DNA from: Flavobacterium sp.
GTDB taxonomy: Bacteria; Bacteroidota; Bacteroidia; Flavobacteriales; Flavobacteriaceae
Reading direction: 5' to 3'
DNA: 64,000 nt
Assembly: GCA_018883065.1 (NCBI GenBank)
Contig: VEQT01000003.1
Span: forward strand, 1-64,000
Within the stretch, counting starts at the first letter, position 1, and every line of letters begins with the position of its first letter. The position numbers and the translations under genes were made by a program. Shown piece after piece: positions 32,155-59,538 of the stretch. The notes below the pieces were generated by a model. That model saw nothing but the letters and a program-made list of their open reading frames with translations, was not told the DNA's origin and did not search any database.

Positions 32155-32232
32155 CAGGAGCTTTTCCGGCTTTCTGTTCCTATCTTTTTCCTGGAACGCC
32201 CTGGAAAAAGGATATTCACGGCAATCCGGGCT
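32155..32232. repeat. REP-like intergenic hairpin element
   Basis: CAGGAGCTTTTCCGGCTTTCTG...CTTTTTCC (32184-32191)-11 nt-GGAAAAAG (32203-32210)...GGCAATCCGGGCT. Confidence 0.55.
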
Positions 32233-32281
32233 ACAAATAATAATTCAATCAGCTTTGATTTGAATTCGGTAAATTTGCCCC

Positions 32282-33442
32282 ATGAAGCTTCCAGAATCGC
32301 TATCTTATAAACTGCAACAGCGGGCACAACAACATGCCTTACGCGCGCTGTCGTCGCCCAAAAACGGGGTCGATTTTGCTTCCAACGATTATTTAGGTTT
32401 TGCTACCAACACCCAATTGTTTTCAAACACACACCAATTTTTAGTAGATCAAGGTAAAATGCAAAATGGCGCCACCGGCTCTCGTCTACTCACGGGAAAC
32501 CACGAATTATATGCTGTTTCTGAGCAAGCCATTGCCCATTTTCATCAAGCTGAATCGGCTTTATTGTTCAATTCGGGTTACGATGCCAACGTAGGGTTTT
32601 TTAGCTCCGTACCCCAAAAAGGTGATATTATTTTATATGACGAATTGTGTCATGCCTCCATCCGCGACGGCATTCGTTTGTCGCACGCCAAAGCGTATAA
32701 ATTTCAACACAATGACATCGAAGATTTAGATCGATTACTTTCTCACTACTCGGCTTCAACCTACAACCTACAACCTACAACCTTTTACCTCGTAACAGAG
32801 TCTGTCTTTTCAATGGATGGCGATTCGCCCAATCTAGAAGAACTAGTTAAATTAGCAAAACAACACCAAGCCTATTTGGTAGTAGACGAAGCCCACGCGC
32901 TTGGCTTATTAGGGAATAAGGGACAAGGATTAGTGCAGCAATTGCAACTCCAGGATAAAATTTTTGCTCGACTGGTTACTTTCGGCAAAGGCATGGGTTG
33001 TCACGGTGCAGCCATTTTAGGTAGTACCGATTTACAACAGTATTTGGTCAATTATGCCCGAAGTTTCATTTACACCACCGGACTTCCCCCACATGCGGTG
33101 GCTTCCATTTATCAAGCATATCAATTACTGTCGCATTCCCCTGCCGAAGTAGAAAAATTGCGCGAGAACATTCAATTTTTTAACCAAGAAAAGCTGCAAT
33201 TGGGACTCAAACCGTTGTTTGTGTACAGCAAATCGGCTATTCAATCGGCTATTATCCCCGGGAATCAAAAAGTGAAAAGCATTGCCCAACAACTACAAAA
33301 TAATGGGTTTGACGTGCGGGCCATCTTATCACCAACAGTGCCCGAGGGCCAAGAGCGCTTGCGGTTTTGCTTACACGCCTACAACACCCACAACGAAATC
33401 AAAGCTGTATTGCAGCTGCTGAGTCAATTGGTTTTTGAATAA
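32282..33442 (+). CDS. bioF: 8-amino-7-oxononanoate synthase
   Basis: DFASNDYLGFA, GATGSRLLTGNHELY, VTESVFSMDGDSPNLEEL, VVDEAHALGLLG, FGKGMGCHGAAILGS. Confidence 0.95.
   Translation: MKLPESLSYKLQQRAQQHALRALSSPKNGVDFASNDYLGFATNTQLFSNTHQFLVDQGKMQNGATGSRLLTGNHELYAVSEQAIAHFHQAESALLFNSGYDANVGFFSSVPQKGDIILYDELCHASIRDGIRLSHAKAYKFQHNDIEDLDRLLSHYSASTYNLQPTTFYLVTESVFSMDGDSPNLEELVKLAKQHQAYLVVDEAHALGLLGNKGQGLVQQLQLQDKIFARLVTFGKGMGCHGAAILGSTDLQQYLVNYARSFIYTTGLPPHAVASIYQAYQLLSHSPAEVEKLRENIQFFNQEKLQLGLKPLFVYSKSAIQSAIIPGNQKVKSIAQQLQNNGFDVRAILSPTVPEGQERLRFCLHAYNTHNEIKAVLQLLSQLVFE
32758..32785 (+). repeat. 7-bp tandem repeat (AACCTAC)3 + AACCTTT inside bioF
   Basis: AACCTAC AACCTAC AACCTAC AACCTTT in exact register; encodes STYNLQPTTF. 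Confidence 0.9.
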
Positions 33443-33494
33443 GGTGCAATTTTACCTTTTGATGTGTACTTTTGTACCCGTTTAACAATTATTC

Positions 33495-34127
33495 ATGGCA
33501 ACAAAACAACGTAAACTATTTGTAACGGGTATAGGCACCGACGTGGGCAAAACCATTGCTTCGTCCATCCTCGTCGAGGCCTTACAAGCCGATTATTGGA
33601 AACCCATACAAGCCGGTGATTTGGATCATTCGGATAGCAACAAAGTAAAATCCCAAATCTCAAATTCTAAATCCCAAATTTTCGAAAATAGCTACAAATT
33701 GAATACACCCGCAAGTCCCCATTATGCGGCCCAATTGGATGGTATTACAATTGATATTAACCAAATTAAAGAACCCAAAACCACCAATCATTTGGTGATT
33801 GAAGGGGCTGGGGGCTTATTGGTTCCGCTCAACGATACCGCTTGTATTATCGATTTAATTCAAAAAGACTACGAAGTCATTTTGGTTTCCCGACATTATT
33901 TGGGAAGTATCAATCATAGCTTATTGAGTTTGGAAGCCCTTAAAAGCAGGAATATTTCTTGTGCCGGAATCATTTTTTCGGGCGATGAAAACCCCGCTAC
34001 TGAATCGATTATTTTGTCAAAATCGGGAGTAAAATGCATCGGCCGAATTGAAAACGAGCCCTATTTTGACGCCAATGTAATTGCGTACTATGCAGATAAA
34101 TTTAGAGAAGCGCTCACAAATATGTAA
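33495..34127 (+). CDS. bioD: Dethiobiotin synthase
   Basis: KLFVTGIGTDVGKTIASSILVEAL, YWKPIQAGD, VIEGAGGLLVPL. Confidence 0.95.
   Translation: MATKQRKLFVTGIGTDVGKTIASSILVEALQADYWKPIQAGDLDHSDSNKVKSQISNSKSQIFENSYKLNTPASPHYAAQLDGITIDINQIKEPKTTNHLVIEGAGGLLVPLNDTACIIDLIQKDYEVILVSRHYLGSINHSLLSLEALKSRNISCAGIIFSGDENPATESIILSKSGVKCIGRIENEPYFDANVIAYYADKFREALTNM
33648..33682 (+). repeat. 7-bp degenerate tandem repeat (5 units) inside bioD
   Basis: AAATCCC AAATCTC AAATTCT AAATCCC AAATTTT in exact register; encodes KSQISNS KSQIF. Confidence 0.88.
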
Positions 34128-34133
34128 TACCAT

Positions 34134-34216
34134 ATTCCAAATCTCAAATTCCAAATTCCAAAATCAACAATCAACAATCAACAATCAAAAATCGCAAATC
34201 AACAATCGCCAATCTC
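34134..34216 (+). repeat. 7-bp tandem array (about 12 units) abutting the bioA start codon
   Basis: ATTCCAA ATCTCAA ATTCCAA ATTCCAA AATCAAC AATCAAC AATCAAC AATCAAA AATCGCA AATCAAC AATCGCC AATCTC|ATG; no register slip. Confidence 0.95.
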
Positions 34217-35494
34217 ATGACTCTTTCCCAACGCGACCAGCAACACAATTGGCATCCGTACACGCAACACAAAACGAGTTTGCCTGCGGTAGCAATTGTG
34301 AAAGGCGAGGGGGCTTTATTGTGGGACGAAGACGGCAAAGAGTACATTGACGCCATTGCGTCTTGGTGGGTAAACCCCTATGGACACAGCAACCGCTATT
34401 TGGCCGATGCCATTTACAAGCAACTCACCACTTTAGAACATGTGTTGTTTGGCGGTTTTACCCACGAACCAGCCGTGGTCTTGTCGGAGAAATTGATGCG
34501 TATTTTACCCTCAAATCAAGCCAAATTGTTTTACTCCGATAACGGATCAACGGCGGTAGAAGTAGCCATAAAAGTCGCCTTGCAATATCATTACAACCTA
34601 GGCAACGCGAAAACCAAAATTTTAGCCTTTGAAAATGCCTTTCACGGCGATACCTTTGCCGCGATGGCCGCTAGTGGCATTTCGTTTTTTACCGAAGCCT
34701 TTCAAGGATCACTGCTCGAAGTGGTACGCGTGCCTTTGCCCACAGCAGGAAATGAGGCACAGGCTTTGGCTATTTTTGAACAACAGGTACAAACGAGAGA
34801 CTTTGCTGCTTTTATTTTTGAACCCTTGGTACAAGGCGCTGCAGGAATGATTATGTATGAAGCCCATGTATTGGATCGTTATTTGAGTTTATGTAAAGAA
34901 CATCAATTGCTGACTATTGCCGATGAAGTCATGACGGGCTTTGGCAAAACCGGCCGAAATTTTGCCTGCGATTACCTCACCCAACAACCCGATATGCTGT
35001 GTTTGTCTAAAGCCTTAACCGGCGGAACCATACCCATGTCGATTACTACTTTTACCCAAGAACTTTTTGATGCGTTTTACAGTGACGACATCAGTAAAGC
35101 CTTGTTTCATGGACATACTTTTACAGCCAATCCAACTGGTTGTGCAGCTGCAATTGCTAGTTTGGAATTGTTAGAATCAGCCGAGATACAACAGCAAATA
35201 CAACAAATTAATCAACACCATTTGGCATTTCAGCAACGAATTGGAACTCATCCGCGTGTAAAAACTACCCGAGTTTTGGGCGTAATTTTTGCTTTAGAAA
35301 TCCAAACTAAAAATGATCAGGCCTATTATGGCCAATTACGCAACAACTTATATGCTTATTTTTTAGAAAATGGCGTTGTTTTGAGACCCGTTGGATCTAT
35401 CATTTATATCTTGCCGCCTTATATTATTACACCAGATCAGTTGCAAAAAATTTACCAAGTCATTGAAAATGCATTGGTTGAGGTGCAGGAGTAA
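34217..35494 (+). CDS. bioA: Adenosylmethionine--8-amino-7-oxononanoate transaminase
   Basis: HNWHPYTQHKTSLPAVAIVKGEGALLWDEDGKEYIDAIASWWVNPYGHSN; DEVMTGFGKTGRNFACDY; LSKALTGGTIPMSIT. Confidence 0.97.
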   Translation: MTLSQRDQQHNWHPYTQHKTSLPAVAIVKGEGALLWDEDGKEYIDAIASWWVNPYGHSNRYLADAIYKQLTTLEHVLFGGFTHEPAVVLSEKLMRILPSNQAKLFYSDNGSTAVEVAIKVALQYHYNLGNAKTKILAFENAFHGDTFAAMAASGISFFTEAFQGSLLEVVRVPLPTAGNEAQALAIFEQQVQTRDFAAFIFEPLVQGAAGMIMYEAHVLDRYLSLCKEHQLLTIADEVMTGFGKTGRNFACDYLTQQPDMLCLSKALTGGTIPMSITTFTQELFDAFYSDDISKALFHGHTFTANPTGCAAAIASLELLESAEIQQQIQQINQHHLAFQQRIGTHPRVKTTRVLGVIFALEIQTKNDQAYYGQLRNNLYAYFLENGVVLRPVGSIIYILPPYIITPDQLQKIYQVIENALVEVQE

Positions 35495-59460: not shown

Positions 59461-59464
59461 TTTT

Positions 59465-59529
59465 GTTTCAGGTTTACGGTTTCAAGTTGACAAGACTTAA
59501 CCTGAAACCTGGAACCTGAAACTTGAAAC
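59465..59529. repeat. Inverted pair of 7-bp arrays in the nuoF-nuoG spacer
   Basis: GTTTCAG GTTTACG GTTTCAA GTT (59465-59488) and AACCTGA AACCTGG AACCTGA AACTTGA AAC (59499-59529). Confidence 0.9.
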
Positions 59530-59538
59530 AAAAATAGA

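Follow-up and report, generated by a model that had tools for sequence, protein, structure and literature searches.

A heptanucleotide array between bioD and bioA of a Flavobacterium genome, probably grown by slippage and tolerated before a translation start

Heptanucleotide repeats are over-represented in scattered bacteria, and there is no consensus on the cause. In many bacteria no other longer simple sequence repeats are as abundant, and polymerase slippage has been suggested for them (Mrazek 2007, as cited in PMC4679880 and PMC4692102). The GGGAATC heptamers of Xanthomonas and the related heptamers of Nostoc have an intergenic bias and a polarity relative to gene edges, in Xanthomonas they also form convergent pairs, and a regulatory role was not found for them (PMC4692102). 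TAACTGA heptamers are found upstream of start codons in Beggiatoaceae, cyanobacteria and a few Bacteroidetes (PMC4679880). For heptad repeats of Flavobacterium, no account was found in a literature search. A single array at bioA matters little, the class of heptads more, and Flavobacterium is a culturable and genetically tractable genus, the AT-rich, non-quadruplex units of which share the gene-edge polarity of Xanthomonas and Nostoc. As these units show the same polarity, explanations of the polarity by G-quadruplexes become testable.

The array described here is located in the window, by which the whole analysed stretch of 64,000 nucleotides is meant, and belongs to the following surroundings:

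33467..33474, + strand: TACTTTTG, candidate -7 element (TAnnTTTG) of a probable bioD-bioA promoter, from a pattern search
33495..34127, + strand: bioD, dethiobiotin synthase (NCBIfam TIGR00347, 124.3 bits, cut-off 83.3)
33648..33679, + strand: in-frame heptads AAATCCC/AAATCTC in bioD (KSQISNSKSQI), detected by Tandem Repeats Finder (TRF)
34134-34217, + strand: twelve-unit heptamer array of the bioD-bioA spacer, from a parse into 7-nt units and TRF
34134..34161, + strand: array part 1, four units of the ATTCCAA/ATCTCAA type (unit parse, TRF)
34162..34217, + strand: array part 2, eight units of the AATCNNN type, final base shared with the bioA ATG (unit parse, TRF)
34217..35494, + strand: bioA, adenosylmethionine-8-amino-7-oxononanoate transaminase (NCBIfam TIGR00508, 535.3 bits, cut-off 405)

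The names bioD and bioA given in the original prediction hold, as both genes exceed the NCBIfam cut-offs, and the gene preceding bioD has bioF as its best family (NCBIfam TIGR00858) with a score under the cut-off. The spacer comprises 89 nt (34128-34216), only about 6 of which lie outside the array, so that it is almost wholly repeat, as had been claimed, and the array indeed reaches the bioA start, since it finishes with the A of the ATG at 34217. The twelve units are, in order, ATTCCAA, ATCTCAA, ATTCCAA, ATTCCAA, AATCAAC, AATCAAC, AATCAAC, AATCAAA, AATCGCA, AATCAAC, AATCGCC and AATCTCA, which confirms the predicted change from an ATTCCAA-like to an AATCAAC-like unit in mid-array; for the second part AATCNNN is the best notation, with AAC, AAC, AAC, AAA, GCA, AAC, GCC and TCA as the NNN series. 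TRF likewise reports two adjoining period-7 arrays, AATTCCA (34126-34162) and AATCAAC (34162-34207). That there is no slippage in register was right for the parse into 7-nt units, but not for the AAT cores, the 7-nt spacing of which is interrupted by one 8-nt step (34154 to 34162) at the unit changeover. The lag-7 identity of the spacer is 64/82. In 20,000 first-order Markov resamplings this value averaged 29.2 and never rose above 50, so that the periodicity is not due to chance; the array thus is a tandem repeat of a 7-nt unit beyond chance length. A search of the spacer against Rfam found no element. The idea of a dispersed mobile element that keeps one consensus was also considered and rejected, because the 24-nt pattern AATCGTTAATCTTCAATCGTTAAT is rare and present in only 3 of 40 genomes.

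Heptads occur also in the neighbouring coding regions. The 15-mer CCAAATCTCAAATTC occurs both in those of bioD and in the spacer array some 470 bp downstream (34134-34161); the bioD heptads represent a conserved coding stretch and not a new insertion, since several relatives have identical residues and equal length at this place. In bioF, CAACCTA is repeated 3.9 times in frame (32757-32783, STYNLQPTT), and there the BioF of one relative (L045) is longer by 4 residues and that of F. microcysteis shorter by 5, and heptads in coding sequence may in this way alter the length of loops. Immediately upstream of bioF, a Flavo-1 RNA (Rfam RF01705, 60.2 bits, above the gathering score) is encoded on the - strand at 32159-32236.

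The candidate -7 element lies about 20 nt 5' of the bioD start, and the octamer is found also at the equivalent place in the close relative L046. From the end of bioF to the interior of bioA, it is the only match to TAnnTTTG on the + strand until 34651, which is already inside bioA, and this + strand pattern search found no promoter-like site within the array. It is for this reason that bioD and bioA probably form one transcript. Judged from the sequence, and on the basis of a weak motif that has about 100 matches in the window versus 84 expected, the only plausible Bacteroidetes-type promoter is probably the one upstream of bioD, and the array is probably an intercistronic spacer. The view that it forms nearly all of a bioA 5' UTR is therefore doubtful, with no promoter-like site inside and a candidate promoter 5' of bioD.

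The array is not a one-off, an alternative that had been raised, as a repeat search detected numerous 7-bp arrays in the source genome, which is a 2.39-Mb Flavobacterium MAG in a 95-contig bin and was sampled by stretches. In 705 kb that were unselected for repeats, 7 is the leading tandem period, three or more copies being reached by 19 arrays of this period and by at most 4 of any other, and Markov shuffles yielded 0 period-7 arrays. The unit families are many (AATCNNN, AACCTGA/AACTTGA, AACCTAC, AAAGTCT, ATAACTC, CTAATCA and others), and 82 of the 96 arrays in a partly targeted 1.09 Mb are intergenic, although genes take up about 90% of the sequence. Contig C51 (15.8 kb, locus L082) is unusually dense in heptad arrays, with at least 5 unit families in one gene cluster. 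Within the genus, 42 of 200 genomes contain AATCAAC arrays and 57 of 101 contain AACCTGA arrays, with reversed-pattern controls usually at about zero. In small samples of 80-100 kb, three of five other Flavobacterium genomes contain 37-50 period-7 arrays per Mb, and no such arrays were found in the samples of the other two and of three genomes from other families of the order. The prediction of an array like the heptanucleotide STRRs is thereby borne out, and the class to which it belongs is genome-wide and genus-wide.

The orthologous spacer of L046, with a bioA that is 87% identical, has 103 nt and the same ends, and the additional 14 nt are two whole AATTCCA-type units, whereas that of L045 (bioA 89% identical) has 87 nt, which is 2 nt less, again with the same ends, and part of the array is replaced. 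Among the three species compared, the anticipated length change in 7-bp steps is thus seen once, as the 14 bp relative to L046. An assembly artefact is very improbable: the sequence does come from a metagenome bin of 95 contigs and repeats are prone to misassembly, but the same spacer and flanks are found in these two other bins, which come from different projects. In some 28 other relatives the array is mostly absent, and bioD and bioA are separated by anything from a 4-nt overlap over 9-62 nt of A-rich sequence (11 nt in F. microcysteis) up to more than 500 nt, several of these spacers holding TAnnTTTG-like sites. As spacers vary so widely and are mostly free of the array, the gene pair has no need for it.

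It had been supposed that the array has a regulatory role and that its copy number alters leader structure. For the spacer by itself, folding predicts an MFE of 0.0 kcal/mol both in the window genome and in L046, and with flanks z is -0.72, so an altered structure is not supported; copy number should leave structure unaltered if, as predicted, the array is unstructured, and a terminator function of the bioA spacer is ruled out on the same prediction. That copy number tunes bioA expression, as in a contingency or tuning-knob leader repeat, would agree with an array that ends on the start codon and differs in length between species, and leader repeats tune Moraxella uspA2 according to a work cited in PMC4679880. 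It is nevertheless improbable, as the units are impure, no structure change is predicted, the position is probably intercistronic and bioA is a housekeeping biotin gene, and as the array is missing in most relatives and similar arrays adjoin many unrelated genes of many functions. A regulatory role of the array is on these grounds not supported.

Polarity was analysed with genes called by a simple ATG-only ORF finder. In two unit families, the A/C-rich strand of the arrays runs toward a gene edge, be it a start codon or the stop of an oppositely oriented gene. Where an array is no more than 20 nt from an edge, it points toward this edge in 49 cases and away in 2 for the AACNTGA family, and in 63 versus 3 for the AATCNNN family. 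In the source genome, 33 of 34 AACNTGA arrays are closer to the edge to which they point, and so are 14 of 19 AATCNNN arrays (p 0.06) and, in the other genomes, 59 of 68; p-values over several genomes are too small because the counts include orthologous loci, a problem of which the AACNTGA count in the source genome is free. At stops, non-repeat sequence did not show a bias in base composition that matches the array polarity. Stop-codon content was rejected as the cause: it fits GATTNNN after stops but fails for GTTTCAR, which has no stop codon and yet is polar.

Inverted pairs of arrays are convergent rather than divergent (52 versus 0 for AACNTGA, 42 versus 11 for AATCNNN), and the paired spacers often fold into strong predicted hairpins, with z down to -6. 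The window contains one such pair:

59461..59538, + strand: nuoF-nuoG spacer with convergent GTTTCAR / YTGAAAC heptad arms (TRF 59499-59529, sequence)

Its hairpin is predicted to be strong (MFE -27.3 kcal/mol, z -3.9), and as it sits inside the nuo operon, the paired-arm hairpin is not a simple terminator; a terminator role for the whole heptad class is doubtful. Cyanobacteria are not known to have Rho, and an insulation of Rho sites could therefore not be a general explanation. Between orthologous intercistronic spacers the heptad family can be swapped while the arm geometry is kept: an AACYTGA pair (L082, 1039-1104) corresponds to an AACCTAC pair in L272, and AATC arms (L082, 5697-5810) correspond to a single AACCTAA arm in L273.

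The bioA array could accordingly belong, with its one arm, to a class of functional intercistronic elements, the arms of which point to gene edges and, when paired, form an RNA hairpin across the spacer for mRNA processing, stability or coupling. The counts of polarity and of convergent pairs, the folding of paired spacers and the geometry that persists when the family changes speak for such a function, but it is rather unlikely, given that the bioA spacer has neither a partner arm nor structure, that the nuoF-nuoG hairpin lies within an operon, that pairing is impossible between arms of unlike families within a spacer (L273), and that the AATCNNN polarity within the source genome is only 14/19. 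A related suggestion, which is tentative, is that heptad arms of several unrelated units are interchangeable, with the A/C-rich strand toward starts and stops, and that the family is replaced and the polarity kept, in which case a selected function or directional copying would act on the geometry and not on the sequence, and the bioA array would be a one-armed case. If this is true, G-quadruplexes are not the cause of the matching geometry in Xanthomonas and Nostoc.

It is likely that the array is a slippage-grown heptanucleotide repeat which is tolerated in the bioD-bioA spacer through the A-rich, G-poor and unstructured mRNA strand that it gives. Slippage and copying in 7-nt steps would have enlarged it, in one Flavobacterium lineage, in the spacer between two presumably co-transcribed genes, and it may be tolerated, perhaps mildly favoured, because such an A-rich, nearly G-free and unstructured strand would suit flavobacterial translation starts, which do without Shine-Dalgarno pairing. 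In F. johnsoniae, translation is favoured by A at -3, -6, -12 and -13 and by low structure (PMC6847099). On the sense strand, arrays adjoining starts have 0.42 A and 0.08 G, compared to a baseline upstream of starts of 0.35 A and 0.12 G. No bioA-specific regulation is needed to explain the array. Three points stand against slippage with tolerance: three related species have retained it with 87-103 nt, which might reflect some constraint; the bioA start, conserved in position among relatives, has a non-ideal context with C and not the favourable A at -3, so that the array is not an optimised start; and plain slippage does not account for so strict a polarity in the wider class.

With the heptanucleotide LSSRs and the STRRs of cyanobacteria, the array and its class share the 7-nt unit, the over-representation of this period genome-wide, the mostly intergenic location, the 7-nt length steps among relatives and the proposed slippage; here, however, the host is a Flavobacterium and the units are several, AT-rich and impure. 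Like the GGGAATC and GGGGA(C/T)T heptamers of Xanthomonas and Nostoc, they are impure heptads with a conserved core and are intergenic (89-93% there; PMC4692102), are flanked by the same genes in relatives, vary in length, and have a fixed polarity near ORF edges with many convergent pairs, although the bioA array itself is unpaired. Those heptamers are G-rich and form G-quadruplexes in vitro, whereas the AATCNNN array cannot, with 2 G among the 84 nt of its + strand and G-tracts of at most GG on the other. Like TAACTGA heptamers, the array lies directly 5' of a start codon and differs by 7-nt indels between relatives, and the Bacteroidetes examples of that type, which are mixed with other heptamers (PMC4679880), can be counted as a further likeness. 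The TAACTGA unit is absent from the bioA array, and the sets of Guaymas Beggiatoa mostly precede starts, whereas here arrays on the stop side are at least as common. The bioA array is thus a member of the known heptanucleotide LSSR/STRR kind, with a unit that is unable to form a G-quadruplex.
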